A stretch of DNA of 64,000 nt. Origin: Tautonia sociabilis (lineage in GTDB: Bacteria > Planctomycetota > Planctomycetia > Isosphaerales > Isosphaeraceae). The position numbers were made by a program, and so were the translations under genes. The notes under the pieces are model-generated. The model was given only the letters and a program-made list of their open reading frames with translations, was not told the origin of the DNA and did not search any database. Positions within the stretch are counted from its first letter, which is position 1. Every line of letters begins with the position of its first letter. Where the stretch lies: the NCBI RefSeq assembly GCF_003977685.1, contig NZ_RYZH01000002.1, positions 1 to 64,000 of the forward strand, written 5' to 3'. Shown here piece after piece: positions 20,292-58,733 of this stretch.

Positions 20292-20380
20292 GGAGAGGTG
20301 ACCGAGAGGCCGAAGGTGCGGCACTGGAAATGCCGTGTACGGGTCAAACCGTACCGAGGGTTCGAATCCCTCCCTCTCCG
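20292..20380 (+). tRNA. tRNA-Ser (anticodon GGA)
   Basis: 89-base class II tRNA. Acceptor GGAGAGG pairs with CCTCTCC, D-arm includes GAGAGGCCGAAGGTG, anticodon loop CTGGAAA has GGA at 20326-20328. A long variable arm (TGTACGGGTCAAACCGTACC) and T-arm GAGGGTTCGAATCCCTC complete it. CCA is not encoded. An integrase gene starts 183 bases downstream, so the 3' end of this tRNA is the likely integration target of the element to the right. Confidence 0.96.
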
Positions 20381-20396
20381 CTTGATATGATCCCCA

Positions 20397-27474: not shown

Positions 27475-27520
27475 GTTTCCCCCTATCGGAATCGCGTTTG
27501 CTGTGCTTTCAGGCTTGCTG

Positions 27521-27534
27521 TCTTTCATGAAAGC
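27521..27534. repeat. Palindromic site shared with the putative partition region
   Basis: TCTTTCATGAAAGC, containing the perfect palindrome CTTTCATGAAAG, lies between the ParB-like gene and the coupling ATPase. The same 14 bases occur at 55555-55568, upstream of parA. The words CTTTCAGGCTTGCTG and CATGACGGA beside it also recur there. Confidence 0.5.
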
Positions 27535-27552: not shown

Positions 27553-28368
27553 TCAGTTGGCCTGGTCGCGCAGCATCTTGGCGAAGGTGCCGAGCTCGAT
27601 CCCCTGGGTCCTGGCCTTGCGGGCCTTGCCCAGGACCTCCTCGAGCACCTCGATGAAGGCGTCCAGGTCGACCGAATCGGCGGCCACCGTGACCGCCCGC
27701 CCGCCGGCCAGCTTGGCGGTGACGCGGGACGGGGAGGGGGCGGCCGACGGCTTGGAGGCGTGCCCGTTCTTCCGCGACTTGAGCGACCCGCTGAGCGCAT
27801 CCCGCGTGAGCTTGCCCGCGGCGACCTTCGAGGCCAGGTCCGCCTGCTCAGCCCCGTCCTCGACGCGCGCCAGCTCGCAGGCCGCGCTCAAGGAGATGTC
27901 GCCGCGATGGACCCGCTCGCGGATCGGCTCGGGCAACTCCAGGATCGACAGCAGCCGCGAGACGGTGGCGTTCGACATGCCGAGCTTCTCGGCGACCGTC
28001 GAGGCGTTCCAGCCGGTGACCTCCATGAGCCGCCCGATGGCCTCGGCCTTCTCCACCGGCGTGTTTGCGATCCGGTGCGAGTTGGCGATCAGGCCCTTCT
28101 GGATCAGCTCGCCTTCGGCCAGCGGCTTCTCCTCGATGATCGCCGAGATCTCCGTCCAGCCGAGCTTCATGGCGGCGAGGATGCGGTGATACCCGTCCGA
28201 CGGGATGTATTTCTGCCCCTTCCGCGTGAGCCGGGGCGGATAGAGCAGCCCGACCTCCTGCATGGATTGGGTCAGGCCAGCGAGGGCCTCCTCGTCGAGC
28301 GACTTCCGGTTCAGCGGGACCAGTTCGATCTCCGCGAGGGGGACGATGCGAATCAGTTCGGGGGCCAT
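27553..28368 (-). CDS. parB: ParB/Spo0J-family DNA-binding protein
   Basis: 271 residues. The N-terminal ParB/sulfiredoxin-like domain reads IRIVPLAEIELVPLNRKSLDEEALAGLTQSMQEVGLLYPPRLTRKGQKYIPSDGYHRILAAMKLG. A helix-turn-helix follows (GWNASTVAEKLGMSNATVSRLLSILELPEPI), then a short C-terminal helical part. It could bind centromere-like sites or regulate the downstream coupling operon. It is separated from the ParA gene by about 28 kb, which is unusual for a canonical ParAB pair. The gene heads the leftward operon. Confidence 0.88.
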   Translation of the reverse strand: MAPELIRIVPLAEIELVPLNRKSLDEEALAGLTQSMQEVGLLYPPRLTRKGQKYIPSDGYHRILAAMKLGWTEISAIIEEKPLAEGELIQKGLIANSHRIANTPVEKAEAIGRLMEVTGWNASTVAEKLGMSNATVSRLLSILELPEPIRERVHRGDISLSAACELARVEDGAEQADLASKVAAGKLTRDALSGSLKSRKNGHASKPSAAPSPSRVTAKLAGGRAVTVAADSVDLDAFIEVLEEVLGKARKARTQGIELGTFAKMLRDQAN

Positions 28369-31277: not shown

Positions 31278-31661
31278 CTATCGGATCATGACCAAGCGGA
31301 CGCCCAGCTCGCACGCCGCCCAGGCCCGTTCTGCAGTGACGGCCTGTGCGTCCAGGTGCAAGGCGAGGGCCAGGCAGGCGCGATCGCCGAGCGATAGCCC
31401 GGCCGAGCGGGTCGGCACCCACAGCGAAGCGGCGATGCTCGCCTGGGCCGCGTCGAACGGGACGACCCGAAGGCGGAGCCGGGCGATCAGCCGAATGGTG
31501 TCGTCGAGCCGCTTGCCGTACTGGACCAGCTTGCCGTAGGTCTCGGCCAGGTTGACGGCGGAGATGCACGCGGAGGATAGGATCGCCCGCACGTTGTCGG
31601 CCCCGGGCTCGTTCCGCAGGAAAGCGATGAGCGCCGAGGCATCCAAGACCGACTCAGTCAC
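31278..31661 (-). CDS. vapC: PIN-domain toxin (VapC family)
   Basis: 127 residues. Ribonuclease toxin of a type II pair. Acidic residues expected for the PIN active site are present: Asp7 in VLDASALIAFL, Glu40 in NLAETYGKL and Asp93 in LSLGDRACLAL. The fourth position has Glu in TAERAW where Asp is usual. The start overlaps the antitoxin stop by eight bases, giving the classic antitoxin-first order on the minus strand. Targets would be tRNA or rRNA; none can be named from sequence. Confidence 0.88.
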   Translation of the reverse strand: MTESVLDASALIAFLRNEPGADNVRAILSSACISAVNLAETYGKLVQYGKRLDDTIRLIARLRLRVVPFDAAQASIAASLWVPTRSAGLSLGDRACLALALHLDAQAVTAERAWAACELGVRLVMIR

Positions 31662-31911
31662 GGGACTCGCGGGTCGCCTCGTCGCGGCGGTCGCGGAGCA
31701 GTTCCTCGGACAACAGCGCCCCCGGCGGTGCGACGTCCGCGAACGCGGACTGGACCTCCTTCAGGACCTGCTCGTACCCGCGGACCAGCAGGCTGTCGCC
31801 GTCGGACTCGAGGACCAGCGTATCGCCGGGCTTGATGTTCAGCTCCCTGCGGAGAGACGACGGGATCACCACCCGGCCGTCGTCACCGATCTTGACGTAC
31901 TCGACTTGCAT
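31654..31911 (-). CDS. vapB: AbrB/MazE-type antitoxin (VapB)
   Basis: 85 residues. Swapped-hairpin AbrB domain at the N-terminus: MQVEYVKIGDDGRVVIPSSLRRELNIKPGDTLVLESDGDSLLVRGY. The C-terminal tail (FADVAPPGALLSEELLRDRRDEATRESRD) would wrap the toxin. ATG 31911 is preceded by GGAGGTG; an in-frame ATG at 31923 is an alternative. The pair is autoregulated in known systems. Confidence 0.87.
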   Translation of the reverse strand: MQVEYVKIGDDGRVVIPSSLRRELNIKPGDTLVLESDGDSLLVRGYEQVLKEVQSAFADVAPPGALLSEELLRDRRDEATRESRD

Positions 31912-32042
31912 AGGCACCTCCATGTGAGTTGACAAATTCCAACGGGGCGCCGCTTCTCCCTGCCTATCGTCAATGATACGCAAGACCTGCAGGCCGGCGA
32001 TTTATTGCGGATGCGGGCACCATATGGGACTAACAGGAAGCT

Positions 32043-32483: not shown

Positions 32484-32857
32484 AGCTCCTCCTCGACACG
32501 CACGCCTTCCTGTGGTGGCTCTCCGACCCCGCCCACCTCGCCGCCGAGGCCCGCATCGCGATCGCCAATCCCCGCCATTTCGTCTTCGTCAGCGCCGCCT
32601 CGATCATCGAGATCGCGATCAAGCAGGCCAGCGGGAAGCTCAAGGTGAGCGAGCACCCCGAGGCCATGATCGGCCCCTGCCGATTCCGCGAGCTGCCCCT
32701 GAAGGTCGCCCACGCCGCCGCTCTGCGCGACCTGTCCCCCGTCCACAAAGATCCCTTCGACCGGCTGCTCGTCGCCCAGGCCAAGGTCGAAGGGATGACC
32801 CTCGTGTCGAGGGACACGATCTTGTCCCAGTATGACGTCCCCCTCCTCGCCGCCTGA
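32480..32857 (+). CDS. vapC: PIN-domain toxin (VapC family)
   Basis: 125 residues from GTG 32480. Active-site acidic residues: Asp6 in LLLDTHAFLWWL, Glu44 in SIIEIAIKQ, Asp91/Asp94 in HKDPFDRLLVAQA and Asp112 in LVSRDTILSQYD. DTHAFLWW and KDPFDRLL are typical of the subgroup paired with Phd-type antitoxins. Its 3' end overlaps the start of the following recombinase gene by 26 bases, so the three genes may be co-transcribed. Confidence 0.92.
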   Translation: MKLLLDTHAFLWWLSDPAHLAAEARIAIANPRHFVFVSAASIIEIAIKQASGKLKVSEHPEAMIGPCRFRELPLKVAHAAALRDLSPVHKDPFDRLLVAQAKVEGMTLVSRDTILSQYDVPLLAA

Positions 32858-33848
32858 GGCGGGCGCCCCATCGCCGGCCACCGCCGTGCTCTTGCCGGCC
32901 CTCCCCTCGGCGTCGCGCCTAACGGTGCCGGCCATCCTGGCCTCGGCCGGCGAGGATGCGGTCACGCGGTTCGTCGAATACTTCGCCGCCCAGATCCGCA
33001 ACCCGCACACCCGCCGGGCCTATCTCCGCAACGCCATGCAATTCCTGGCCTGGTGCGAGGGCCGGGGCATCCATGCCCTGAAGGACATCCGGCCCGTGAC
33101 GGTCGCGGCCTATATCGAGCAGCTGGTGAAATCGCACTCCAAGCCGACGGTGAAGCAGCACCTGGCCACGATCCGCATGCTCTTCGACTGGCTGGTCACC
33201 GGCCAGGTCGTGCCGGTCAACCCTGCGCATGCCGTCCGGGGCCCGAAGCACGTCGTCACCAAGGGCAAGACCCCTGTCCTCTCGCCGGAGGAGACCCGCA
33301 CGTTGTTCGAGAGCATCGCGCCCGTCACCGTCGTGGACAAGAGGGACCGCGCCGTCATCGCCGCGATGTTCTTCACCTTCGCGCGGGTCGGTGCCGTCGT
33401 CACGATGGCGGTCGAGGACTATTGCCCGCAGGGCAAGCGCATGTGGCTCCGCCTCCAGGAGAAAGGCGGCAAGCAGCACGAGATGCCGGCCCATCATAAG
33501 CTCGAGGAGTTCCTGGACGCGTACGTCGAGGCGGCGGGGATCGGGGGCGACCGGCGCGGGCCCCTCTTCCGCACCGCCACCCGCAGGGGCGACGGGCTGA
33601 CGGCGAGCCCGATGTCCACCGCCGACGTCTGGCGCATGATCCGCAGACGGGCGGAGAAGGCGGGGATCAGGACGCCGATCGGCTGCCACAGCTTCCGGGC
33701 CACCGGCATCACCAACTACCTGGAGCACGACGGCACGCTGGAGAAGGCCCAGCAGATGGCCGCCCACGCGAGCCCGCGCACGACCAAGCTCTACGACCGG
33801 ACCAACGACCAGGTCACGCTGGACGAGATTGAGCGCATTAAATACTGA
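32832..33848 (+). CDS. Tyrosine recombinase
   Basis: 338 residues. A SAM-like core-binding domain (NPHTRRAYLRNAMQFLAWCEGRGI) is followed by the catalytic domain. Catalytic residues are Arg in FARVGAVVTM, the HxxR box in CHSFRATGITNYLEHDG, the second His in QQMAAHASPRTTKLYDRT, and Tyr in that same stretch. It resembles stand-alone XerC/D-like recombinases on plasmids, which resolve multimers or move cassettes. It is distinct from the integrase at the left end. Confidence 0.92.
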   Translation: MTSPSSPPEAGAPSPATAVLLPALPSASRLTVPAILASAGEDAVTRFVEYFAAQIRNPHTRRAYLRNAMQFLAWCEGRGIHALKDIRPVTVAAYIEQLVKSHSKPTVKQHLATIRMLFDWLVTGQVVPVNPAHAVRGPKHVVTKGKTPVLSPEETRTLFESIAPVTVVDKRDRAVIAAMFFTFARVGAVVTMAVEDYCPQGKRMWLRLQEKGGKQHEMPAHHKLEEFLDAYVEAAGIGGDRRGPLFRTATRRGDGLTASPMSTADVWRMIRRRAEKAGIRTPIGCHSFRATGITNYLEHDGTLEKAQQMAAHASPRTTKLYDRTNDQVTLDEIERIKY

Positions 33849-38625: not shown

Positions 38626-39054
38626 TCATCTCGCCTCTATGAAATCGAACCGTTCGATGACGAGCGTGTCCTCCGCCGCCGCCAGGAGATCAGCCTCGCC
38701 CAGTTCCCGGACCCAGGGGACGCGGTGGTTGAGGATCCCCCGCAGGAGCTGGATGCCCGGCGTCAGCTCGTCGCCCAGATTCCGGCCCTCGATGCGGGCG
38801 ATCTCGCCGTCGAAATGCAGCGTGATGCCCTCCGAGGGGTCGAACTCAACCTTGCGAAGCAGCGCGTAGTCGTACGCGAGGCTCCGCCCGTCCTTGCGGC
38901 GGAATTCGAGCATGGGGGAGCGCTCGCGCATCCCCCGGAGCCATCCATAGCAGCCGAGATCGTCGGTCAATCCCTCCTCCTCGTCCGGCTGCTCGCCGCG
39001 CTGCACGAACGCCGCCCTCGGGTTCGTGTATCGCTTCAGGACGCTATCGCTCAT
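38626..39054 (-). CDS. Hypothetical protein upstream-overlapped by the relaxase
   Basis: 142 residues, MSDSVLKRYTNPRAAFVQRGEQPDEEEGLTDDLGCYGWLRGMRERSPMLEFRRKDGRSLAYDYALLRKVEFDPSEGITLHFDG. A soluble alpha/beta protein of unknown family. It begins inside the last 11 bases of the relaxase gene and so is translated from the same message. Association with the relaxase suggests a transfer-related role, but this is only context. Confidence 0.65.
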   Translation of the reverse strand: MSDSVLKRYTNPRAAFVQRGEQPDEEEGLTDDLGCYGWLRGMRERSPMLEFRRKDGRSLAYDYALLRKVEFDPSEGITLHFDGEIARIEGRNLGDELTPGIQLLRGILNHRVPWVRELGEADLLAAAEDTLVIERFDFIEAR

Positions 39055-41698
39055 GCTGCCTCTCCTGCGCCGGGGCGCGGGCCGGGGCCGGGATCCGAAC
39101 CAGCCTCCGCCGCTCCGCCTCCTTGAGACGCTGACGGATCTTGGGAACCGGTGGGCGCGGGCCGGCTGCCGCGACGTCCCTCGCCGACATCTGCTGCTCC
39201 GAGCGGGCCAGCTGCGCCCGCAGCGCCTGCTTGTCGTTCGTGTAGACCGTGGCCGATTTCCGCCCCCGCGAGCAGCTCACGTAGAATTGCTCGCGGGAGG
39301 TCGCCGCGAAGGAGTCGGCCGACTGGCCGACGAAGACGCGATCGACCGTCTTGCCCTGCGCCGCATGCGAGGTCACGACATAGCCGTAATCCAGATGGCC
39401 GAAGTCCCGTGCGATCGTCCATCCGTTATCCAGTTCGATGTCCCCGTCCCTGCCGAAGGACCTGACGCGGTGCAGGTCGCCGTTGTGCAGCGCGTGCTTC
39501 CGGTCCGCCGTGGTTCCGTTCCTCGTGATGCGGACGACGTCGCCCGGCGCAATCGCGAGCTTTCCACGGTGGAAGACCTCGAACCGGCCCGACTGCCCCA
39601 AGGGCAACGCCGCGGCGCCCGTCGCCTCGATGCGCTCGCCTTTGCGGTAGCCCCTCGCATTCTGGTGGAACAGGAGCACGTCGCCGGGCTGGTATTGGGC
39701 CGGGTCAGCCTTCTCGGCCTCCGTGAGTTGCCGGCTGATGAGCACGGGGATCTCGCGCCCCTCCCCGTCCAGCTTGCCCTCCTCGCGGAGGACCCGCCGG
39801 ATCTCGCGGGTGATGCGGTCCTTCTCCAGATGCGTGGGCGATACGACCAGGGCGGTCTCGCCCGCGCCTACGGCCTCGACGTAGTCCGCCGCCAGCTGCC
39901 GGTGGCGGTCCCGCTCCCCGATCTCCCGGACCCAGCCCAGCCCGTCGAGCCGGTCGAACCCCTCCTCCGCCCGGCCCTCGCTCAGGGCCTTGATTGCCTC
40001 CTTGTAGAGGCCCTTCTGCCGCTGGATCTCCCGCACTTCCGCCGGGATGACGCCGGCCTCCTCCTCGAGCAGGCGAAGCGGCGAGCCCCGCTCGACCGAT
40101 TTGTGCTGCCGGCGGTCGCCCGAGAGCACGATGCGGGCGTCGGCACGCTCCGCCAGGTCGAAGACCCGGGCCATCGTCTTCGAGCCGAGCAATCCCGCCT
40201 CGTCGATCCAGATGACCTGCCCGCGCGTCCGCTCCTGCAGCGTCTCGTCGAGCAGCAGCCGCGTCACCGTGTCGGCCGCCCCGAATCCCTCCTGGCGGAG
40301 CACGCCGCGGCTGGCTCCGGCCGTCGGGGCAAAGACGAAGACCTCCCTCCCCCCTTCCCGGATGCCCTCGGCCGCCTCCTGCATGAGCGACGTCTTCCCC
40401 GCCCCAGCCGCCCCGCGGATCACGATGACCCGGTCGCGGGAGGAGAGCACATGGCGCACCGCCCGAAGCTGGTCGCGGTCCAGCCATGTTCGGGTGGGCA
40501 GCCTGTCCGGATCGCCCAGGGCCTTGCGCGTCCCCCTCCCCTTGCGGGCGAACTCGACCATGCGGCCTTCCTCGGCGAGCACGTGCGGCGTCGTGGCCAT
40601 CCGGCGGCCCTGGACGGTCCCGATCACGAGTTCTGAGGGCGAAGGCGATCGGGTGACCTGCTCGACCGACGCTCGCCCCACGGAATGCTTCAGGGCCTCG
40701 GTGAAGAGCTGCCTCTCGGGCACGGCGGAGCGGCGCTCGAAGCAATGGCCGATCGCGAACCGCATCGCCTCCTCCGCGGCCCGGTCGTCGCGGATCCGGG
40801 GAGAGGCAATCGCCCGCTGCCGGATGCGGGCAACGGCGTGGAGATCATCCGGGGCTAGCCGCGACCGCCACTCGGCCCGCAGCTGATCCCCCGTCAGGTG
40901 CGTTGCCTTCCGCTCGCGGGTCTTGGCCCCGAGGCGGTCCTTCTGCGCATCGTCGGTGATCCCCTCCTCGCGTGCGGCCTTCTCGATCACGTCGCGCCGG
41001 CGCGAGAACAGGCCGATCACCCGGTCCGAAACACCCTCCACCTCCCAACCCTTGGCGGTGCGACGGATGCCGTAGCCTTCTCCCGCCAGGAGATCGGCCA
41101 GGTGCGAGTGGAACACCGCCTGGAAGTACGGGGCGTCCCGCTTGATGCCCCGGAACTGCCCGGCCTTCCACGCGCGCTCCTGCTCGTCCCAGGTGGCGTT
41201 GAACGCGAAACAATGCGCGTGCAGGTGTGGGTCCGGCACACCGTCCACCGGCCGTGAGGTGAGATGGACGAACTCGCCCCAGACCAGGTTGCCCGTCGTG
41301 CGATCGGAGCACTTCCCGCCCTTGCGGACGCGGGACTGGGCTTCCGCCTCGAGCTCGTTCATGGTCCGGCGCACGGCCGTGCGGAAGGCATCGGTAATAC
41401 GCTCGTCATCGGTCAGCGCGTGCAGGACGGAGACGCTCTTGGGCACGTGGAAATTGATGTCGTAGCCGACGGTGCGATGGTCCTTGTTGCGGAGCGTCAG
41501 CGGGGCGCCGGTCCGGGGGTGGCGGTTGTCGCAGAGCGACTCCCAGGCCTGCCGATCGACCTCGCCGGAAAGCCCGAGCATCCCCGCGCCACGGCCGCCC
41601 CATCGCCCGGCAAGCTCCTGCCCCTCGACGTAGTAATCGGCCGTGCTGTAGTAGCTCTTCGCCCCGGCAGCCGACGCGTTCTGGATGATTCGCAGCAT
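39044..41698 (-). CDS. MobF-family relaxase/helicase (TrwC/TraI type)
   Basis: 884 residues from ATG 41698. It would nick the transfer origin, stay bound to the strand and unwind it. The N-terminal TrwC domain has paired catalytic tyrosines in SYYSTADYYVEG (residues 15-26), YDINFHVPKSVSVL and the metal-binding triad DPHLHAHCFAFN. The C-terminal RecD/TraI-like helicase has Walker A RGAAGAGKTS, Walker B IWIDEAG, GDRRQHKSV and a final SHAAQGKTVDRVFV block. The longer frame to 41827 adds unlikely residues. It is divergent from the region holding the candidate transfer origin. Confidence 0.95.
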   Translation of the reverse strand: MLRIIQNASAAGAKSYYSTADYYVEGQELAGRWGGRGAGMLGLSGEVDRQAWESLCDNRHPRTGAPLTLRNKDHRTVGYDINFHVPKSVSVLHALTDDERITDAFRTAVRRTMNELEAEAQSRVRKGGKCSDRTTGNLVWGEFVHLTSRPVDGVPDPHLHAHCFAFNATWDEQERAWKAGQFRGIKRDAPYFQAVFHSHLADLLAGEGYGIRRTAKGWEVEGVSDRVIGLFSRRRDVIEKAAREEGITDDAQKDRLGAKTRERKATHLTGDQLRAEWRSRLAPDDLHAVARIRQRAIASPRIRDDRAAEEAMRFAIGHCFERRSAVPERQLFTEALKHSVGRASVEQVTRSPSPSELVIGTVQGRRMATTPHVLAEEGRMVEFARKGRGTRKALGDPDRLPTRTWLDRDQLRAVRHVLSSRDRVIVIRGAAGAGKTSLMQEAAEGIREGGREVFVFAPTAGASRGVLRQEGFGAADTVTRLLLDETLQERTRGQVIWIDEAGLLGSKTMARVFDLAERADARIVLSGDRRQHKSVERGSPLRLLEEEAGVIPAEVREIQRQKGLYKEAIKALSEGRAEEGFDRLDGLGWVREIGERDRHRQLAADYVEAVGAGETALVVSPTHLEKDRITREIRRVLREEGKLDGEGREIPVLISRQLTEAEKADPAQYQPGDVLLFHQNARGYRKGERIEATGAAALPLGQSGRFEVFHRGKLAIAPGDVVRITRNGTTADRKHALHNGDLHRVRSFGRDGDIELDNGWTIARDFGHLDYGYVVTSHAAQGKTVDRVFVGQSADSFAATSREQFYVSCSRGRKSATVYTNDKQALRAQLARSEQQMSARDVAAAGPRPPVPKIRQRLKEAERRRLVRIPAPARAPAQERQHER

Positions 41699-41895
41699 AT
41701 CCGAAGCAAGTGCTCTTCGTTTCGACCCGGAAAGTGCTACGCGTGCCCGCTTCGACCGCAGCGCAAGGGGGCGCGGCGTCGCTCGCCAGAGGCCCATCCC
41801 GCCGTCCGAGCATGGCCCTCGCGGCACACGCTATGTACATTATTAGCATGCGTCAAGTTTTATCGTTATATTTCACCGGTTTAGCCTGTGGAATA

Positions 41896-43502: not shown

Positions 43503-46500
43503 TTAGAACGCTTGTCGGCCCTCGACCGCCGTGCCGCCCGGGAGGTCGAGAATCTGTCCCTCGGCCCCCTCCACGGGCGGGGCCGGGCGGCCGAACCGCA
43601 GGTAGAGGGCCGGGACCACGAACATGTTCAGCGCCGTCGAGGTCGTCAGGCCGCAGAGGATCACCAGCGCCATCGGCGTCTGGATCTCGCTGCCCGGCTT
43701 GTCGCCGCCCAGTGCCAGCGGGATCAGCGCCAGCCCGGCGGTCAGTGCCGTCATCAGGATCGGGGCAAGCCGCTCCATCGCCCCCAGGTAGACCGCCTCC
43801 GGCAGGCTGGCGACCTCCTCGTGCTGCTGGAGGTGGCGGATGTGCGAGACCATCATGATGCCGTTGCGCGTCGCGAGGCCGAACAGGGTGATGAACCCGA
43901 TCAGCGAGGCGACCGACAGCACGCCGCCCGAGAGGTAGACGCCCACCACGCCGCCGATTAAGGCCAGCGGGAGGTTGACCATTACCAGCAGCGCGTCCCG
44001 CGTCGAGCCGAAGGCCACGTTCAGCAGGAAGCCGATGCCGATGATGACCGCGACGCCCAGCAGCGTCAGCCGCCGCGTGGTCTCCTGGGCGCTCTCGAAC
44101 TGGCCGCCGTACTCGACGAAATACCCCTCGTACTGGCCCCGGCCGATCGGCACGCGCTCCGCGACCCGCTCGCGGATGTCCTCCACCACGCTGATCACGT
44201 CGCGATCGGCCACGTTGCACATGACCACGATCTTGCGCTGCACATTCTCGCGGCTGATCTGGTTCGGGCCGGTGCTGCGGACGATGCGCGCCAGCGCCTT
44301 CAGCGGGACCTTCGCCCCGCGGGGCGTGTCCACCGGCAGGTTCTCGATCGACTCCCGGTCGATCGCCTTGGGGTCGCCGACCCGGACCACGAGGTCGAAG
44401 GCGTAGCGGCCTTCCAGCACCTGGGAGACGACCTGCCCCCGGAACGCGGTATCGACGGCCTCAGCGACGTCCGTCACCGTCAGGCCGTGCCGCGCGATGG
44501 TCGGCCGGTCGAAGCGCACCTTCACGATCGGGATGTCCATCTGCTGCTCGACGGCCAGGTCCACCACCCCGGGTACCGCCGCCATCTCCCGCCGGACGTC
44601 CTCGGCCAGGGCCCTCAGCTTGTACAGGTCCTCGCCGAAGATCTTCACCGCGACGTTGGCCCGGGTGCCCGAGAGCATGTGGTCGATCCGGTGCGAGATC
44701 GGCTGGCCGATGACGATGCTCATCCCCGGCACCAGGGTGAAGTCGCGGCGTAGCTCGGCCAGGAACTCCTCCTTGCTGCGGCCCTCCCCGAGCCGGAACG
44801 ACACGTCCAGCTCGGCGGCCTCGACCCCCTGGGCGTGCTCGCTCAGCTCGGCCCGGCCGGTCCGGCGCGCGACCCCCGTCACCTCCGGGTGCGCCATCAG
44901 CACGCGCTCGACGACCCGCCCGAGCTTGTCCGATTCCGGGAGCGAGGTGCCCGGCAGCGTGACGGCGCTGATCGTCAGCGCCCCCTCGTTGAACTCGGGC
45001 AGGAACGCGCGGCCGAGAAAGGGGATGGCCGCCACGGCGACGACGAGCAGGGCCAGGGCGGGGACCAGCACGGCCCACGGGTGCCGCAGTGTCGGCCCCA
45101 GGACCCGGCCGTAGGCCCACTTGAGGGCCCGCACCACGAGCGGCTCGCGGCCCCCGAGGATGGCGCGGCTCCTCGGCAGCAGAAGGGAGCAGAGCGCCGG
45201 GGTGATCGTCAGGCTGACCACCAGCGAGGCGAACAGCGCCACGACGTAAGCGACACCAAGGGGCCGCAGCATCCGCCCCTCGACCCCCCCCAGGAAGAAG
45301 ATCGGCAGGAACACCAGCAGGATGATCAGCGTGGCGAAGACGACCGACGAGCGGACCTCGACGCTCGCGTGGTAGATGACCGCGAGGGGGTTGCGCCGCC
45401 GGCCCTCGGGGAGCCCGGCGTTCTCGCGCAGCCGGCGGACCACGTTCTCGACGTCGATGATCGCGTCGTCGACCAGGTCGCCGATGGCGATCGCCATGCC
45501 GCCGAGCGTCATCGTGTTGATCGTCGCGCCGAACGCCTTGAGCACCAGCACCGCCGTCACCAGGGACAGCGGGATCGCCAGCAGCGTGATGAAGCTGGCC
45601 CGCAGGTTCGCCAGGAACAGCAGCACGATGATGACCACCAGGATGCCGCCGTCGCGCAGCGCCTCCTCGACGTTGCGCACGGCGACCGCGATGAAGTCGG
45701 CCTGGCGGAAGATGTCGCGGTCGATCTCCATGCCCTCGGGGAGCGTGGCCTCGATCTCGTCCAGCGTGGCGTCGAGCGCCGCGGTCAGGGCGAGCGTGTT
45801 GGTGTCCGGCTGCTTCTGGACGCCGAGGATCACCGCCGGCTCGGCGTCCGCCGAGCCCTCGCCCCGCTTGATCGCCTCGCCGATCTGGACGAGCCCGAGC
45901 TGCCCGACGCGGATCGGGACGCCGTCGCGCACCGCCACCACCGTGTCGGCGATGTCCGCCGGGTCCCGGACGCGGCCGATCCCCTGGATGAGCTGCTCCT
46001 GCCCCCCCTCGATGAGGAAGCCCGCCGAGACGTTCTGGTTGGTCTCGCGCAGCCGGTCGGCGACCTCGGCCACGCCGATCCCGTACGCCTTGAGCCTCTC
46101 CGGCGAGAGCACCACCTGGTACTGCTTCACGCCGCCGCCGATGGGGACGACCTGGGAGACGCCCGGCACCGACAGCAGGCGACGGCGGATGCGCGTGTCG
46201 GCCACCGTGCGCAGCTCGATCCCGCTGTGGCGGTCCGAGGTCAGCGACAGGAACAGGATCTCGCCCATGATCGAGGAGATCGGCGCCAGGATCGGCCGCT
46301 CGACCTCCGGCGGCAGGCTGCCCGAGACCAGGCTCAACTTCTCGTTGACGATCTGCCGCGCGATGTAGATGTCCGTGTCCCACTCGAACTCGACCCAGAC
46401 GACCGAGATGCCCACGGCCGTGGCCGACCGCACGCGGCGCACGCCGGAGGCCCCGTTGACGGCCGCCTCGATCGGGAAGGTGACGAGCGTCTCCACCTCC

Positions 46501-46676
46501 TCGGGGGCCATGCCGTAGGCCTCGGTGATGACCGTCACCGTCGGCGCCGTCAGGTCGGGGAAGACGTCCACCGGCATGGTCGCGGCGGTATAGCCGCCAG
46601 CCGCGAGGAGCAGGACGGCCAGGAAGAGGACGACGAGGCGGTTGGTCAGCGACCCGCGGATGATGGCGTTGAGCAT
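43503..46676 (-). CDS. czcA: Heavy-metal efflux RND pump (CzcA/CusA family)
   Basis: 1057 residues from ATG 46676 (MLNAIIRGSLTNRLVVLFLAVLLLAAGGY). Inner-membrane proton antiporter that drives metal export across the envelope with adaptor and outer-membrane channel. Twelve helices. Family marks include MPVDVFPDLTAPTVTVITEAYGMAPEEVETLVTFPIE, the helix-4 acidic motif AIGDLVDDAIIDVENVVRRLREN, and a duplicated C-terminal half with NGIMMVSHIRHLQ. Upstream lies the adaptor, 16 bases away; downstream is only a CzcC remnant. Metal specificity cannot be assigned safely. Confidence 0.95.
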   Translation of the reverse strand: MLNAIIRGSLTNRLVVLFLAVLLLAAGGYTAATMPVDVFPDLTAPTVTVITEAYGMAPEEVETLVTFPIEAAVNGASGVRRVRSATAVGISVVWVEFEWDTDIYIARQIVNEKLSLVSGSLPPEVERPILAPISSIMGEILFLSLTSDRHSGIELRTVADTRIRRRLLSVPGVSQVVPIGGGVKQYQVVLSPERLKAYGIGVAEVADRLRETNQNVSAGFLIEGGQEQLIQGIGRVRDPADIADTVVAVRDGVPIRVGQLGLVQIGEAIKRGEGSADAEPAVILGVQKQPDTNTLALTAALDATLDEIEATLPEGMEIDRDIFRQADFIAVAVRNVEEALRDGGILVVIIVLLFLANLRASFITLLAIPLSLVTAVLVLKAFGATINTMTLGGMAIAIGDLVDDAIIDVENVVRRLRENAGLPEGRRRNPLAVIYHASVEVRSSVVFATLIILLVFLPIFFLGGVEGRMLRPLGVAYVVALFASLVVSLTITPALCSLLLPRSRAILGGREPLVVRALKWAYGRVLGPTLRHPWAVLVPALALLVVAVAAIPFLGRAFLPEFNEGALTISAVTLPGTSLPESDKLGRVVERVLMAHPEVTGVARRTGRAELSEHAQGVEAAELDVSFRLGEGRSKEEFLAELRRDFTLVPGMSIVIGQPISHRIDHMLSGTRANVAVKIFGEDLYKLRALAEDVRREMAAVPGVVDLAVEQQMDIPIVKVRFDRPTIARHGLTVTDVAEAVDTAFRGQVVSQVLEGRYAFDLVVRVGDPKAIDRESIENLPVDTPRGAKVPLKALARIVRSTGPNQISRENVQRKIVVMCNVADRDVISVVEDIRERVAERVPIGRGQYEGYFVEYGGQFESAQETTRRLTLLGVAVIIGIGFLLNVAFGSTRDALLVMVNLPLALIGGVVGVYLSGGVLSVASLIGFITLFGLATRNGIMMVSHIRHLQQHEEVASLPEAVYLGAMERLAPILMTALTAGLALIPLALGGDKPGSEIQTPMALVILCGLTTSTALNMFVVPALYLRFGRPAPPVEGAEGQILDLPGGTAVEGRQAF

Positions 46677-46692
46677 GGGTGTCCCTCCAGGG

Positions 46693-48435
46693 TCAGTGGC
46701 TGTGGCCGTGTTCGGGGATGACCGACGAGACCGATGCCAGTCGGATGGCGTAGGCCCCCTCGGTAGCCACGCGCTCACCCTCCTGGAGCCCCTGCCTCAC
46801 CTCGACGTAGCCCGCGTCGCGGAGCCCCAGCACCAGGTCACGCCTCTGGAAGCTCTCGCCGTCGAGCATCACATAGGCGGTGGGCCGGCCGTCCTCGTCG
46901 ACGATCGCCGACTCGGGGACGGCGAGCGCCTCCTCGGCCCGCGCTGTCTCGATGGCCACGTCGGCGAACAGGCCGACCCGCACCGCGTGGTCGGGGTTGT
47001 CGATCTGGTAGCGCACGGGCACGGTGCGCGAGTCGGGATCGACGACCGAGCCGACGTCGATCAGCGAGCCGCCCTCGGACCCGAGGATCGAGATGCGACG
47101 CCCCGGGCGGGCGGCGAGCGTGAAGTCGGCGGACGGGGCCGCGACCACCCGCTCCAGGTCGAACTCCGGGACCCGGGCCTCGATCCAGACCCGGTCCAGG
47201 TTGATGATCGTGAACAGGGCCTCGGTCACGCCCACGTACTCGCCCTGGGTCGCTTCGGCCTCGGTGACGGTCCCCGCGTGCGGCGACTGCAGCACGACCT
47301 GCATCGCCGGGGACGACGACCCGTCCTGCTGCCCGCCCTCGGCCGGGGCGTCGGCCGACGGGGGCAGCATCGCGACCAGCTTCGCCCTCGCCTCCTCGTA
47401 GGGGCGACGCAGCCGGAGCTTCCCCTCGTAGACCGACTCGGCGACGTGCATCTCGTGCTCGGCGAGGTCCAGTTCCTTCTTCGGGACGGCATCCCGCGCC
47501 GCGAGCGACGCCAGGCGCTCGTAGACGAGCCGGGCCTGATCCAGCTCCAGCTTCGCCGTCTGGATCTCGACCTCGACGTCCATCTGCCGGACGGTCAGCT
47601 CCGTCTCCAGCGTCTGGACCTGCGCCCGGTTAGCCAGGAGCGCCACCCCCGGCGGGCCGGCCAGCGGCGGCTCGATGACGGCGACTACTTGGCCGGCCAG
47701 GACCTGCTCCCCCACCCGGGGGAAGGCGCCGCCCGGCGGTGGCAGGACCCGCCCGGCGAGCGGCGGCGTAACGACCGCCTCGGCGCCGGCCGCCGGGCGG
47801 ACCTCCCCGGGCACAACCAACCGCTCCACCAGACGCCGCTCGGCGACGGGCTCGGTCACGAGCCCGATCTTCCACTGCTGCTCCTTCAGGAACGGGATCA
47901 CTCCCTCCGGTTCGATGTCGCCGGCGGCCTCGGCGGCCTTCGTCGCCGCGGCCTCATCCGGATAGACCGTCACGGGGACGCGGATCGTGTCCTCCGCCTG
48001 GTCGCTCTTGAGCACCAAGGTCATCTCGTTCCGGCCGGCCTCCGGGAACGCGACCGTCGGGCCGTAGATGCCGGGGCTCCGCGGCGCCGCCTGCTCGACG
48101 GTCGTCGTCTTGCCGGTCGGCCCGGTCGCGACGACGGTGAGCGTGCCGCCGCGGATGGGCGTGCCATCCTCGAGCACGGTGAGGTGGACGTTGAACTTCG
48201 CCCCCGCGCCCTGCACGAGGTAAGGATGCTCCATGAAGAGTTCCAACTTGTCGCTGAAATCGGTCACCGCGACCGTCGCGGGCTCCCCTTCGGCCGGCGC
48301 CTCCGGCTGCACGCCCCCGAGCCCGGGGAGCGAAAACTCGACGCAGCCAGCGCCCGCAAGCGAAATCATCACCGCAACGAAGATCCACCCGGCGGCCCGG
48401 GGGGCGCGCAAGGGGGAAGACCGGAAAGGCCGCAT
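46693..48435 (-). CDS. czcB: RND efflux periplasmic adaptor (CzcB/HlyD family), lipoprotein
   Basis: 580 residues. Signal and lipobox LAGAGC near residue 31. Residues about 55-160 form an extra beta-rich N-terminal domain (FMEHPYLVQGAGAKFNVHLTVLEDGTPIRGG) seen in large CzcB-like adaptors. A lipoyl-like/barrel-sandwich part and coiled coil follow (VQTLETELTVRQMDVEVEIQTAKLELDQARLVYERLASLAARDAVPKKELDLAEHEMHVAES). The C-terminus ends EHGHSH, a possible metal ligand. It is co-transcribed with the pump. Confidence 0.92.
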   Translation of the reverse strand: MRPFRSSPLRAPRAAGWIFVAVMISLAGAGCVEFSLPGLGGVQPEAPAEGEPATVAVTDFSDKLELFMEHPYLVQGAGAKFNVHLTVLEDGTPIRGGTLTVVATGPTGKTTTVEQAAPRSPGIYGPTVAFPEAGRNEMTLVLKSDQAEDTIRVPVTVYPDEAAATKAAEAAGDIEPEGVIPFLKEQQWKIGLVTEPVAERRLVERLVVPGEVRPAAGAEAVVTPPLAGRVLPPPGGAFPRVGEQVLAGQVVAVIEPPLAGPPGVALLANRAQVQTLETELTVRQMDVEVEIQTAKLELDQARLVYERLASLAARDAVPKKELDLAEHEMHVAESVYEGKLRLRRPYEEARAKLVAMLPPSADAPAEGGQQDGSSSPAMQVVLQSPHAGTVTEAEATQGEYVGVTEALFTIINLDRVWIEARVPEFDLERVVAAPSADFTLAARPGRRISILGSEGGSLIDVGSVVDPDSRTVPVRYQIDNPDHAVRVGLFADVAIETARAEEALAVPESAIVDEDGRPTAYVMLDGESFQRRDLVLGLRDAGYVEVRQGLQEGERVATEGAYAIRLASVSSVIPEHGHSH

Positions 48436-52980: not shown

Positions 52981-53138
52981 GTCAAGGATGTCCCGGCGGC
53001 GGCCGAGGCGGTCTCCGCCCGACCTTCCGCGCTGGCGCTTGTGCAGGCCGGTGCCCCCCGCCTCGCCCGTCCTTGACCGCCCCTCCCCCCGATTCGGGAC
53101 TCGCCTTCGTCCCGGGTGAATGCCGCGCGCATTCACCC
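52981..53138 (+). promoter_or_regulatory. Structured leader, copy C (upstream of ardC)
   Basis: The outer stem pairs GTCAAGGA (52981-52988) with TCCTTGAC (53070-53077), and an inner stem pairs GAGGCGG (53005-53011) with CCGCCTC (53058-53064). A second perfect hairpin, GGGTGAATG / CATTCACCC (53114-53122, 53130-53138), follows, and GGAGGAGA precedes ATG 53165. The architecture equals copies A and B, although the primary sequence differs; it shares CGCTGGCGCT with copy A. Confidence 0.55.
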
Positions 53139-53164
53139 AGACAGTTCCAACGGAGGAGAGACCC

Positions 53165-54061
53165 ATGCAGAACGCACGCCACGACGTCTACGCCCGCGTC
53201 ACCGACGCCATCATCGCCGAGCTGGAGAAGGGCGTCAGGCCCTGGCTCAAGCCCTGGAACGCCGAGCACATGGCGGGCCGGATCAGCCGCCCCTTGCGGC
53301 ACAACGGCCAGCCCTACAAGGGCGTCAATGTCCTGATGCTCTGGATGGCGGCCGAGATGCAGGGCTTCGCCGCCCCCTACTGGATGACCTTCAACCAGGC
53401 CAAGGACTTCGGGGCGAGTGTGAAGAAGGGGGCCAAGGGCTCGCTGGTCGTCTACGCCGACCGCATCACCCGGACCGAGGCCGGCGAGGACGGCGAGGAG
53501 GCCGAGCGCGACATCTACTTCATGAAGGGCTACACCGTCTTCAACGCCGAACAGATCGAGGGACTCCCGCCGCACTTCCACGCCGTCGCCGCGCCGCAAC
53601 TCGACCCGATGCAGAGGGTCGAGGCGGCCGACCTGTTCTTCGCCAACACCGGGGCCGAGATCCGCCACGGCGGGAATCAGGCCTACTATGCCGCCGAGGC
53701 GGACTATGTCCAGATGCCGCCCTTCGAGTCGTTCCGCGACGCCGAGAGCTATTGCGCCACCCTCGCCCACGAGGTGGCCCACTGGACGAAGCACCCGGCG
53801 AGGCTCGATCGCGACTTCGGCCGCAAGCGGTTCGGCGACGAGGGCTATGCCCGCGAAGAGCTGGTCGCCGAGATCGGGGCCGCCTTCCTGGCCTGCGACC
53901 TGGGCATCACGCCGGAGCCCCGCGAAGACCACGCGAGCTATCTCGACCACTGGCTCAAGGTCCTGAGGGAGGACAAGCGGGCCATCTTCCAGGCCGCCGC
54001 CTACGCCCAGAAAGCCGTGGACTTCCTGCACGGCTTGCAGCCGCAGGGGGTGCAGGGATGA
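53165..54061 (+). CDS. ardC: ArdC-type antirestriction protein
   Basis: 298 residues. The N-terminal ArdC single-stranded DNA-binding domain reads DVYARVTDAIIAELEKGVRPWLKPWN, GVNVLMLWMAA and YWMTFNQAKDFGASVKKGAKGSLVVY. The C-terminal zincin-like metallopeptidase domain carries HEVAHWTKH (HExxH, His202 and His206) and EELVAEIGAAFL. Known ArdC protects incoming plasmid DNA during conjugation. It lies in a cluster with an orphan methyltransferase and follows structured leader C. It overlaps the next gene by four bases. Confidence 0.92.
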   Translation: MQNARHDVYARVTDAIIAELEKGVRPWLKPWNAEHMAGRISRPLRHNGQPYKGVNVLMLWMAAEMQGFAAPYWMTFNQAKDFGASVKKGAKGSLVVYADRITRTEAGEDGEEAERDIYFMKGYTVFNAEQIEGLPPHFHAVAAPQLDPMQRVEAADLFFANTGAEIRHGGNQAYYAAEADYVQMPPFESFRDAESYCATLAHEVAHWTKHPARLDRDFGRKRFGDEGYAREELVAEIGAAFLACDLGITPEPREDHASYLDHWLKVLREDKRAIFQAAAYAQKAVDFLHGLQPQGVQG

Positions 54062-55011: not shown

Positions 55012-56099
55012 ACCGCGTGGCCGGGCGAAGCGCCCGGCCATACTCCCCTCCGCCTGCATGGGAATGAGCGGGCGGCAATCCGAGGTTGCCCCCTCCCCCC
55101 AGCGACGACATCAGTCGGAGTCGTCCGCCCGATCGCTGCTTGGTGTGCCAGGATGACACAGCCGGTCAGTTGCCTACCTGGCCACTGCCGAAGTCGGGAT
55201 TCGCGACTCCTCCCACCTTCCGCCGGTCCTGCCCGGCCCTCGTTCAGTCAACTGACTGATTTGAGGGCAGGATTATCTGTTGCTGTCAGACATCTTCCCT
55301 AAGCAGTGCTTAGGGTGCTTTTCACCGTGAAAACAGGATTTCATGACGGAAAGCCAGCCTGTTTTCTTGCTTTCTTTCCGGCGTTCTTGCAGTCTGGCAA
55401 GCCGTCTCGCTCTCGCGTCGCTCCATCTGACTGCATGTTCTCGGACGGTCCGCGGGTCCGCGCCCTGGCGGCGGATGCTATTTGGCGAGTCACGGCCAAC
55501 CGAACCTGCAATCAGGAGGCTGGCCGGATTGTTTGCTTTCCGGTCTTCTGACTTTCTTTCATGAAAGCCCCCTTTCACTCTGTCTTGCCAGACTGCGCCT
55601 GTGAGCAACAATCATTCGGACCTCTGGATTTCATTATTATTTCCGGACAGCTTGCATGCCATCCGGCTTTCTTTCTTGCCAGACGGCCATCAGGCAAGCA
55701 GCGGAGCTTTCGTAGGGATGCCAGCTGCAAGATGGCTTGCTGTCCGGCTGGCTTGATTTCGTGCTTTCCTTCTTTCAGCCTGGCATACTGTCTCGCAAGC
55801 TCGCTGCCTTCGGGCGAGAATGACTTGCGCTTAAAAGGCCGATTCATCATGACGGACGGAAGGAAACCTGGCTGGCTTGCTTTCCATCCATCCATCCGTC
55901 TTACTTTCTGTCTTTCAGGCTGGCTTGCTTGGTTGCCCCAGCCGTCGACCGGCGGGCGAGGTCGGTATTGGGCGGGGAGGGACTTGCCGCCTTACTTGCT
56001 GGTTTGCTTTCTTGCTGGCTGGCCTGAAAGCCGGACGGACTGTCATCCGGCTGCACATTATGCTTGCCAGCCGGAAGGAAATCAATTAAACGGTAGATC
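55012..56099. other. Palindrome- and repeat-rich region upstream of parA, candidate partition site
   Basis: No convincing gene in 1.09 kb. The stretch is less GC-rich than its surroundings and full of recurring words (CTTGCTTTC, GGCTGGCTTGC, CTTGCCAGAC, CATGACGGA). Perfect inverted repeats: CCCTAAGCA G TGCTTAGGG (55297-55315), TTTTCAC C GTGAAAA (55319-55333) and CTTTCATGAAAG (55556-55567). The last recurs upstream of the coupling ATPase. Its place directly before parA suits a centromere-like site. The open frames on both strands here are made of the repeated words. Confidence 0.5.
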
Positions 56100-56786
56100 A
56101 TGATTATCGTTGTAGCAAATTCCAAGGGCGGCGTAGGTAAATCCACCCTGGCCGTCCACCTGGCGGCCTGGCTCCACAAGCAGGGCCACCGCGTCACGCT
56201 GGCCGACTGCGACACCCAGCAGTCCTCATCGGAATGGGTCCGCGAGGCCGTTCCCGAGGTGAGGGCGGTCCGGCTGGACAGCCCCGACATGATCCTGAAC
56301 GACCTGCCTCAGCTGTGCCAGGAGACGGATTTCGTGGTCGCCGACGGGCCGGGGAGCCAGACGGAGACCAGCCGCGCCCTGCTGCTCCGCGCCGACCTCG
56401 CGATCGTGCCGTGCAAGGCCAGCATGCTGGAAGTGCGGGCGCTCGCCAAGGCGACCGACGTGCTCCGCCAGGCCCAGGACATCCGCGCCGGCAAGCCCGA
56501 GGCCGTGATCGTGCTGAGCATGATCGGCAAGAACTACCGGCTGACCAAGGACATGAAAGACGCCGCCGCGGCGCTCGACCTTCCCCTGGCCACACGGGCC
56601 CTCGTCTTGCGTCAGGTCTACGCCGACGCCCCGGGGCAAGGCTCCGTCGTCTGGAATCTGGGTTCGCGGGCCCAGGAGGCTGCCGGAGAGGTGGACCTGT
56701 TGTTCCGCGAGATCCTGCCGGGGGCCGTCAGGAACAGGGGCCGGAAGCCGTCCTCGATCAAGTCGAAGAAAGTAGCAGTCGCGTGA
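56100..56786 (+). CDS. parA: ParA-type partition ATPase
   Basis: 228 residues. Deviant Walker A KGGVGKST at residues 9-16, the start MIIVVANSKGGVGKSTLAVHLAAWL, then the switch region ADCDTQQSSSEW and FVVADGPGSQ. Short type Ib ParA without an N-terminal DNA-binding domain, as usual when the partner is a ribbon-helix-helix protein. The ATG has no strong ribosome site; TTGCCA-17-TAAACG lies just upstream, close to the start. Segregates the plasmid copies on the nucleoid. Confidence 0.93.
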   Translation: MIIVVANSKGGVGKSTLAVHLAAWLHKQGHRVTLADCDTQQSSSEWVREAVPEVRAVRLDSPDMILNDLPQLCQETDFVVADGPGSQTETSRALLLRADLAIVPCKASMLEVRALAKATDVLRQAQDIRAGKPEAVIVLSMIGKNYRLTKDMKDAAAALDLPLATRALVLRQVYADAPGQGSVVWNLGSRAQEAAGEVDLLFREILPGAVRNRGRKPSSIKSKKVAVA

Positions 56787-56797
56787 AGGAGGGACCC

Positions 56798-57112
56798 ATG
56801 GGCGAACGACGCGCATTAGTTGAAGGACTCAAGAGCACCGGCCCCGCCGTAGATCCCCAGGCCGAGAAGGCCTTCGTCTTCAAGAGGGAAGTCTCGGAGG
56901 CCTCGCAGGCCGCTACGCCGATGGCTACCCCGACCGCGGCGACCGCGCTCTCCCGCGTCCCGTTGAGCACGCGCATCAGGTCCGACTTTTCGGCCGCGCT
57001 GAAGCGCGCCTCGCTCGAACGCCAGCTCGCCGGCGTCGAGCCCAACACGCTCCAGGACATCCTCGAACAGGCGGTCGAGCCCTGGCTCCGCTCGAACGGC
57101 TACCTGAAATAG
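56798..57112 (+). CDS. Ribbon-helix-helix partition partner
   Basis: 104 residues. A disordered N-terminus (MGERRALVEGLKSTGPAVDPQAEKAFVFKRE) is followed by a C-terminal ribbon-helix-helix: VPLSTRIRSDFSAALKRASLERQLAGVEPNTLQDILEQAVEPWLRSNGYLK. Flexible tail plus RHH is the design of ParG/ParB-like centromere-binding factors with type Ib ParA. It starts 12 bases after parA with GAAGGAGGGACCC as ribosome site. Confidence 0.82.
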   Translation: MGERRALVEGLKSTGPAVDPQAEKAFVFKREVSEASQAATPMATPTAATALSRVPLSTRIRSDFSAALKRASLERQLAGVEPNTLQDILEQAVEPWLRSNGYLK

Positions 57113-57299: not shown

Positions 57300-58229
57300 A
57301 TGACCAAACGCCTCCCGCCCAAGGGCGACCACCAGCCCGACCTTTTCGCCGCCAACTTCGCGGACATCCCGATCCGCGACCAGCGCGACACGATGGAGCG
57401 GCCCTTCTTCAGCCTGGCCAAGAAGCCGCGTTACACGCCCATCGAATACCACGTCGGCGACGTCTGGGTGGAGGTCTCGGCCAATCCGAAATTCGGGCTC
57501 GCGACCATCTGGGACGCCGACATCCTCATCTGGGCCTCGACGCAGATCACCGAGGCCCTCGACCGCGGCCAGACGCCCAGCCGCGTCGTCCGATTCCATC
57601 CGCACAACCTGCTGAAGTCCATTCGCCGGGCGACGGGCGGGGAGCATTACCTCCGCCTTCGCGCCGCCCTCGAGAGGCTGACCCACACCGCCGTGCGCAC
57701 CAACATCCGGGGAGAGGGCAAGAAGAAGGCCGCCTCGTTCCACTGGCTGGAGAGCTGGACGGAGGTGACGGACGAGAAGACCGGCGAGACGATCGGGATG
57801 ACGATGACGCTCCCCGACTGGCTCTACGAGGGGATCCTCATGAAGGGCGGGGTGCTCACCATCCACGAGGATTATTTCCTGCTCACCGGGGGCATCGAAC
57901 GCTGGCTCTATCGCGTGGCCCGCAAGCACGCCGGGCAGCAGGAAGGCGGCTGGCAGTTCACCATGCGTCAGCTCTACGAGAAGTCCGGCTCAGCCTCGCG
58001 GTTCTCGGATTTCGCCATCGACGTCCGCAAGGTGGTCGAAGCCGACTCCCTGCCGGAATACACGACCATGCTGCACAAGAACGAGGAGGGGGAGGAGATC
58101 GTCCATTTCCTGAAGCGAGACCAGCTGGCCCTCGACGACCCCCGCTATGAGTCCGCCAGGCACCCGCGGCGGCGGGTCGCTCGCGGCATCGCATCTAAGG
58201 CCCTGAGTTTTAAGAAAGTCGCGGGATAG
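57300..58229 (+). CDS. repA: Plasmid replication initiator protein
   Basis: 309 residues, RepA/RPA-type initiator. Conserved stretches: DQRDTMERPFFSLAKKPR, IEYHVGDVWVEVSANPKFGLATIWDADILIWASTQI, VRFHPHNLLKSIRRATGGEHYLRLRAALERLTHTAVRTNI, then LPDWLYEGI, HEDYFLLTGGIERWLYRVARKHAG and WQFTMRQLYEKSGS. Winged-helix fold that binds iterons. Nine iterons begin a few bases after its stop codon, which makes the assignment strong. It follows the parA operon on the same strand. Confidence 0.92.
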   Translation: MTKRLPPKGDHQPDLFAANFADIPIRDQRDTMERPFFSLAKKPRYTPIEYHVGDVWVEVSANPKFGLATIWDADILIWASTQITEALDRGQTPSRVVRFHPHNLLKSIRRATGGEHYLRLRAALERLTHTAVRTNIRGEGKKKAASFHWLESWTEVTDEKTGETIGMTMTLPDWLYEGILMKGGVLTIHEDYFLLTGGIERWLYRVARKHAGQQEGGWQFTMRQLYEKSGSASRFSDFAIDVRKVVEADSLPEYTTMLHKNEEGEEIVHFLKRDQLALDDPRYESARHPRRRVARGIASKALSFKKVAG

Positions 58230-58234
58230 GCGTA

Positions 58235-58631
58235 CGGCCTATTGGGCGCAAGGCGCCGCGGGTTGGCAGATTGGACACGGCCTATTAGCCGCAAGTCATC
58301 TCTGCTTGAGGGGTCTGGCACGGCCTATTAGCCGCAAAATTGCACCTGCGGAACGTTTTGGGACGGCCTATTGGGCGCAAAAATGGCAGATTTGCGCCAA
58401 TAAAATCTCTCTCGAGCCTGCCAGGCGACCACGCTCCTGTCCCCATAGCCAGAAAACCGCGGTCACGGCCGATTAGGCGCAAGTGCCCGGTTGTGTCGCT
58501 GGCGTGCCGGGAGGGAAGAACTACATCCGGCGGCTGTGGATTAGCACGGCCTATTAGCCGCAGGCGACTCGGCCTATTAGGCGCAAAACGACCGGCCTAT
58601 TAGGCGCAAAGGCTCGGCCCATTAGGCGCAC
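58235..58631. repeat. Nine iterons of the plasmid-type replication origin
   Basis: Consensus CGGCCTATTAGGCGCAA, 17 bases, with the palindromic core GCCTA T TAGGC. Starts: 58235, 58278, 58321, 58364, 58466, 58547, 58570, 58593, 58615. The first four are exactly 43 bases apart, about four helical turns. The last four are 23, 23 and 22 apart, about two turns. Copies 1 and 4 read GGGCGCAA; copies 2, 3 and 6 read AGCCGCA. A partial inverted copy (TTGCGCCAATA) is at 58392-58402. These are the expected binding sites of the initiator. Confidence 0.93.
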
Positions 58632-58733
58632 GGATCGCCCGATTGTGCCGAGGCGTCAATGGGATACCAGGGCCCTAACTGTTTAACATCAAGTATTATT
58701 GTAACTTACTTAACGTCCGGTGCCTGTGGACAA
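58535..58733. other. Origin elements: DnaA-box-like sites and AT-rich unwinding region
   Basis: On the minus strand TAATCCACA (58543-58535) and TTGTCCACA (58733-58725) each differ from the DnaA box TTATCCACA by one base. Between the last iterons and the second site, 58676-58718 is strongly AT-rich (TGTTTAACATCAAGTATTATT), a likely duplex-opening element. No gene lies between 58230 and 58979. Confidence 0.6.

Follow-up and report, generated by a model that had tools for sequence, protein, structure and literature searches.

The RPA family of iteron origins (PF10134) includes those of the sphingomonad plasmids pPDL2 and pUT1, which combine an RPA-type RepA, iterons, an AT-rich element and a DnaA box. 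As described in PMC3516476, pPDL2 also has an integrase and an attP site, and a mini-replicon made of its oriV and repA replicated in Acinetobacter. SGI1 is an integrated element with a rep gene followed directly downstream by four iterons of 16-17 bp and AT-rich DNA, and its excised form is reported to replicate when a helper is present (PMC7433901, PMC7826253). After a failed transformation, the authors of PMC7826253 supposed that an active RepA together with oriV on the chromosome is harmful. The SGI1 initiator is described as a member of the Rep_3 family related to IncN2 RepA. PMC8409611 gives trmE as the integration target. Tn4371-family ICEs are integrated, carry repA and parA, and have a RepA that PMC2789088 relates to that of pVS1; they also carry a full conjugation cluster. 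According to PMC4980987, RK2 oriV combines iterons and DnaA boxes with an unwinding element that holds four short repeats. Its initiator, TrfA, belongs to a family different from RPA RepA. The iterons of RK2 are spaced at 22-24 bp.

Few replicons have been described in planctomycetes. According to a 2014 paper, the plasmids known until then from the family Planctomycetaceae numbered only two; it also describes, for genes of two planctomycete plasmids, relatives located on planctomycete chromosomes (PMC3906078). In this study, we analysed an iteron array behind a repA gene of Tautonia sociabilis; the window is the whole stretch of 64,000 nucleotides that was analysed. As in pPDL2 and pUT1, an RPA-type RepA, iterons, an AT-rich element and DnaA-like boxes are present. 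However, the iterons lie behind repA, whereas those of pPDL2 are reported upstream of it (PMC3516476), and the Tautonia element, unlike these plasmids, is integrated and carries a MobF relaxase. It resembles SGI1 in being integrated and in the iterons and AT-rich DNA behind its initiator gene, but differs in initiator family, in its target (tRNA-Ser) and in having no known helper, whereas SGI1 is helper-activated. It shares repA and parA with the Tn4371-family ICEs, although no conjugation cluster was recognised in it. The analysis yields a delimited and conserved origin, about 200 bp long, together with its initiator in planctomycetes, where few replicons have been described. It also adds, outside Proteobacteria, one more case in which plasmids and integrative elements overlap. 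Among the papers listed in searches of an open-access library for planctomycete integrative elements, plasmid origins and MobF transfer, none describes this element family, as judged by titles and the openings of abstracts.

Anatomy of the origin and its upstream genes

The features of the origin region are listed below.

55826-55841, minus strand: single inverted iteron, candidate RepA operator, 274 bp before parA, with similar copies in relatives
56100-56786, plus strand: parA, partition ATPase (family match; NF041546 157 bits, below the cut-off of 180)
56798-57112, plus strand: small open reading frame of 104 aa between parA and repA, without a family match
57300-58229, plus strand: repA, initiator of 309 aa (PF10134 RPA, E 8.6e-83)
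58234-58631, plus strand: nine direct iterons, consensus CGGCCTATTAGSCGCAA (0.45 matches expected by chance in the whole window)
58235-58379, plus strand: auxiliary array of four iterons at 43 bp, lineage-specific by comparison across loci
58535-58543, minus strand: DnaA-like box TAATCCACA, one mismatch from TTATCCACA, 12 bp ahead of the core iterons
58547-58630, plus strand: conserved core of four iterons at 23, 23 and 22 bp (22-24 bp cluster in 26 of 27 loci)
58675-58714, plus strand: AT-rich candidate unwinding element holding four TAAC repeats, position kept in relatives
58725-58733, minus strand: DnaA-like box TTGTCCACA, 94 bp past the end of the last core iteron, one mismatch from TTATCCACA

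RepA scored 277.8 bits against PF10134 (cut-off 27). Its reading frame is intact, and dN/dS values of 0.05-0.13 against nine relatives indicate purifying selection; RepA is therefore probably in use. Among solved structures, the RepA matches were two solute-binding proteins (E 0.059), which we took as chance. At the place of the small open reading frame, two related plasmids have genes annotated as ribbon-helix-helix proteins.

Nine direct copies of a 16-base iteron lie on the plus strand behind repA, the first beginning five bases past the last base of the stop codon. As 18-mers they start at 58234, 58277, 58320, 58363, 58465, 58546, 58569, 58592 and 58614, with successive spacings of 43, 43, 43, 102, 81, 23, 23 and 22. 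When CGGCCTATTAGGCGCA was searched with up to three mismatches, nine of the 11 matches in the window fell within the array, against a mean of 0.45 and a maximum of 3 in shuffled sequence (n = 100). The shuffle control and the PF10134 match bear out a preliminary description of this DNA, which had reported nine iterons directly after a RepA-type initiator. The measured spacings also agree with its account of the first four as 43 apart and the last four as 22-23 apart; the gaps of 102 and 81 bp were absent from that account. The AT-rich element and two DnaA-box-like sites that it placed beside the iterons are likewise present.

Two of its further claims fared less well. The iterons had been placed on one face of the DNA. 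At 10.5 bp per turn their phases range from 257 to 103 degrees, and the R of 0.59 is equalled by 3.8% of random placements, so that even at this pitch the claim holds only loosely; it weakens at 10.6 bp (R 0.30) and 11.0 bp (R 0.22). Each iteron had also been said to have the palindromic core GCCTATTAGGC. This exact 11-mer was found in two of the nine copies alone. Full palindromes make up 10 of the 104 core iterons in the 26 loci, and the frequency of complementary bases at paired positions does not exceed that in shuffles. The iteron is therefore better regarded as a directional repeat, roughly CGGNCNATNRGNCGCA.

The inverted iteron upstream of parA suggests self-control of the operon. A search of 23 upstream stretches with a degenerate pattern at 0-1 mismatch placed an inverted copy 125-316 bp ahead of parA in six (the window, L141, L142, L148, L151 and G582); one further match, in L140, is located elsewhere. 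The DNA before parA also shows a strong 4-base periodicity. Between 55250 and 56095 the lag-4 match was 0.424, against 0.259 (sd 0.016) in shuffles, and the best 400-bp stretch (55641-56040) lay about 12 sd over the contig mean. Among the other loci tested, L140-L143 also have a strong periodicity, and the remaining eight have a weaker one or none. We regard the stretch 55250-56095 as a candidate partition site.

Conservation among planctomycetes and RPA-family plasmids

RepA matches (E up to 0.001), some of them weak, were found in 50 of the 397 genomes of the class, and by a count from the match table 23 genomes of the class hold a copy at 70% identity or more. A search of the phylum gave matches in 6 of 392 genomes, including one from another class (G045). 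A repA copy is also carried by Zavarzinella formosa. We compared 27 loci. Of these, 25 are L005-L007 and L039-L060, with L060 being a fragment (54%), and the other two, G414b and G648b, are second copies. A further repA match (G633:C174) lies outside the 27 loci.

The preliminary description had named absence of the repeats from relatives with the same initiator as evidence against an origin. Four clustered iterons at 22-24 bp follow repA in 26 of the 27 planctomycete loci, and no such cluster arose in 20 rounds of resampled sequence. The sole cluster on the reverse strand was L059's own four sites read backwards. The exception is L051, which is without the iteron core and has an internal stop in its RepA. 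Internal stops were also found in the RepA of L053 and L060, where the core is kept.

The layout beyond the core is fixed. In all 26 loci with a core, the first TAAC of the four-fold block lies exactly 45 bp past the end of the last core iteron, an arrangement that did not occur in 200 Markov-resampled rounds. When one mismatch at most is allowed, a DnaA-like box follows the AT-rich block in 20 of these loci and none follows it in the other six; the exact TTATCCACA occurs in L006, L039, L043 and L045, among others. The box 12 bp ahead of the first core iteron is present in seven of the 26 (the window, L007, L044, L045, L048, L050 and L060). In both G648 elements (L052 and G648b), an inverted repeat, TATGTATCT/AGATACATA, was seen between the TAAC pairs of the AT-rich block.

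The 43-bp array is variable. Spacings of 43, 43, 43 were found in L039, 44, 43 in L040 and 43, 43 in L041, and a single gap of 43-44 in L006, L042, L043 and L059; the remaining loci are without the array, which is limited to loci whose RepA is about 86% identical or more. This pattern of conservation indicates a core around 58535-58733, to which the 43-bp array has been added. In six distant RPA homologues from planctomycetes, with 35-39% identity, the downstream side, which was the side searched, had no iteron family at 22-24 bp; the core is thus seen only in the close family. In one distant RPA locus (L008:93-373), repeats are spaced in multiples of 8 bases.

RepA relatives were found on 1,176 plasmid records, from which 11 loci were sampled. 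Nine of these (L028, L030-L035, L037 and L038) have direct repeats at 22-24 bp. Gaps of 43-47 bp also occur in several plasmids of the family, L035 included (43, 23, 22). By genus, the series 43, 23, 22 belongs to a Sphingobium plasmid and 22, 45, 22 to one of Methylobacterium. Since 43-45 bp is about two iteron steps, the dual period appears ordinary for the RPA family, and the view of the preliminary description that it is unusual does not stand. Such a gap may represent a skipped iteron slot. At least three TAAC motifs within 60 bp behind the iterons were found in eight of the 11 plasmids, L028, L029 and L030 being without them; the strict planctomycete TAAC pattern fits L031 and L032 only. 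A search of 72,556 plasmid records for DNA similarity to the iteron core gave no match (E 0.01). The plasmid loci L033 and L037 have the gene order DUF2285/repA/parA/DUF2840, with iterons behind the conserved part of repA. We take this order to be Tn4371-like, and the Tn4371 RepA is presumably also a member of PF10134.

The Tautonia locus contains the sequence features of an RPA-type iteron origin, namely the PF10134 gene, two-turn direct repeats, AT-rich repeats and DnaA-like boxes. By those features that are testable in sequence, the origin belongs to the RPA family.

The surrounding element and its boundaries

The contig comprises 228,804 bases, and genes for ATP synthase, SecA and cytochrome oxidase were recognised on it by eye. 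The features around the origin are as follows.

20292-20381, plus strand: tRNA-Ser(GGA), attachment gene (ARAGORN)
20321-20382, plus strand: left attachment repeat of 62 bp, with a perfect partner at contig 114864-114925, outside the window
20321-64000, no strand: window part of a 94.5-kb integrated element (contig 20321-114925), from attachment repeats and gene content
20564-21886, plus strand: tyrosine integrase beside the tRNA gene (PF00589 E 1e-5, 25.9 bits, just below the curated cut-off of 27.1)
25987-27528, minus strand: coupling-protein-like ATPase (PF12696 E 1.4e-6)
27553-28368, minus strand: ParB-like protein (PF17762)
32832-33848, plus strand: second tyrosine recombinase, with relatives in several compared loci (PF00589 E 1.7e-18)
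39044-41827, minus strand: TrwC (MobF) relaxase-helicase (PF08751 E 5.6e-69)
53120-54061, plus strand: ArdC-type antirestriction protein (PF08401 and PF18818)

The 62-bp repeat consists of the last 61 bases of tRNA-Ser plus one more, and its two copies, 94.5 kb apart, bracket repA. Synteny breaks on both sides of the element, at contig 7800 and at 114926-115150. In three genomes of the same genus (G454, G419 and G403), the genes of the right flank adjoin the stretch that starts near 7.8 kb of the window. The right boundary needs either an inversion of about 107 kb or an assembly misjoin, and one inversion of that size would account for both breaks. A simple empty site was sought and rejected: in G403 and G419 the tRNA-Ser gene is followed by other sequence (11 and 0.6 kb beyond), none of which aligns with the window. 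In G454, tRNA-Ser was not found within the portion compared.

Similar boundaries occur elsewhere. Long flanks were available for 15 loci, and in six of them, the window included, repA is bracketed by direct repeats derived from a tRNA gene: Ser in the window (62 bp), Met in G045 (49 bp), Leu in G414b (60 bp), Arg in G399 (55 bp) and in G648a (63 bp), and Phe in G648b (94 bp at 90%). A second, weaker repeat of the G045 tRNA also brackets repA. The other nine loci showed no bracketing tRNA repeat of at least 30 bp within the stretches of 60-120 kb (except the own contig; G401 was ended by the contig end). Two other tRNA-overlapping repeats of at least 30 bp lie between tRNA genes of G409 and not around repA, and tRNA matches of 16-23 bp around repA in G409, G582 and G426 were excluded from the count of six. 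All six tRNA-bounded elements enclose a TrwC gene, and five have a tyrosine integrase near one end; the search made gave no integrase match in G648b. The like-placed genes of G414b, G045, G399 and G648a exceed the PF00589 cut-off.

Eight genomes have repA on contigs of 4.8-10.1 Mb, with ten copies in all. TrwC was found in all 11 genomes with copies. In these 11 genomes, no match over the cut-off was found for VirB4 (PF03135) or VirB10 (PF03743), searches that divergent systems may escape. For the VirB4 model TIGR00929, with 41 first-look candidates per genome scored, none of the 11 had a match over the cut-off and four had weak matches. Two genomes, G414 and G648, each carry a pair of repA copies on a single contig; the paired RepA proteins are 95% and 92% identical, respectively, and the iterons nearly equal. 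Two such copies would be expected to be incompatible as free plasmids, and their coexistence thus fits a silent integrated state.

Proposed replication cycle and alternative explanations

The preliminary description had regarded the locus as a plasmid origin. An iteron origin adjoining its initiator stands, but a plasmid in the narrow sense is not supported, since the assembly places the origin in a tRNA-integrated element on a contig of chromosomal genes; the plasmid label is corrected here to that of an integrated element. With attachment repeats, its own integrase and its own relaxase, the element appears to work like an integrative mobilizable element. As stated in a 2017 review, the integrative mobilizable elements then known were without any MobF relaxase (PMC5704250).

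We consider it likely that the locus is the vegetative origin of an integrative element of the mobilizable type, silent while integrated and replicating in theta mode once excised. While the element resides in tRNA-Ser, the origin would be kept silent. The integrase would excise the element as a circle, RepA would bind the four core iterons as direct repeats, and DnaA would occupy the flanking boxes. The TAAC-rich element would then melt, leading to helicase loading and theta-mode replication of the circle. Replication, with ParA and its partner, would protect the circle against loss until it is transferred or integrates again. The additional iterons upstream would most likely titrate RepA and pair origins, which would limit the copy number, and the inverted copy ahead of parA would most likely let RepA repress its own operon.

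It is also conceivable that the replicon is an ordinary plasmid, connected to chromosomal sequence only in the assembly by way of the 62-bp tRNA repeat. The draft assembly of 133 contigs, the synteny break at the right boundary and the 1,176 plasmid records with RepA relatives would agree with such a misjoin. We nevertheless consider it unlikely, because contigs of 4.8-10.1 Mb hold ten relatives, tRNA-bounded elements occur at five other loci, and a false join at the repeat alone leaves the second break near 7.8 kb unexplained. The intact RepA under purifying selection, the perfect attachment repeats and the conserved core make it quite improbable that the origin is dead, the remnant of a plasmid that integrated long ago and lost replication. 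Decay of this kind is seen at L051, with its RepA stop and missing core, and L053 and L060 also have RepA stops, though the core is kept. That the iterons serve only as regulatory or incompatibility sites, with replication beginning elsewhere, is very improbable: such a role would suit the isolated inverted iteron before parA and the variability of the 43-bp array among loci, but the fixed distance from iterons to AT-rich repeats in 26 of 26 loci and the DnaA-like boxes in most are the standard layout of an origin.

Given an excisable element with its own vegetative origin as the preferred reading, a wider one may be put forward tentatively. The Tautonia element may belong to a phylum-wide set of chromosomally integrated planctomycete elements that combine a MobF relaxase and a near-invariant RPA origin with no recognisable VirB4 or VirB10; these would persist as silent islands, replicate like plasmids in transit and move by a transfer apparatus not yet recognised. 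We hold this to be a real possibility rather than a probable one. The origin of about 200 bp lends itself to a direct test as a replicating vector.

Several other gene groups were seen in the element by eye. RND/CzcA-like efflux-pump genes, probably metal-resistance cargo, occur at 43503-48435 and at contig 78-109 kb. Two large restriction-modification-like genes lie behind the origin (59087-66017), and a PIN-domain/AbrB-like toxin-antitoxin pair is found at 31278-31983. Elsewhere in the same genome there are four further TrwC matches (G000 contigs C40, C76 and C119), which perhaps mark similar elements.
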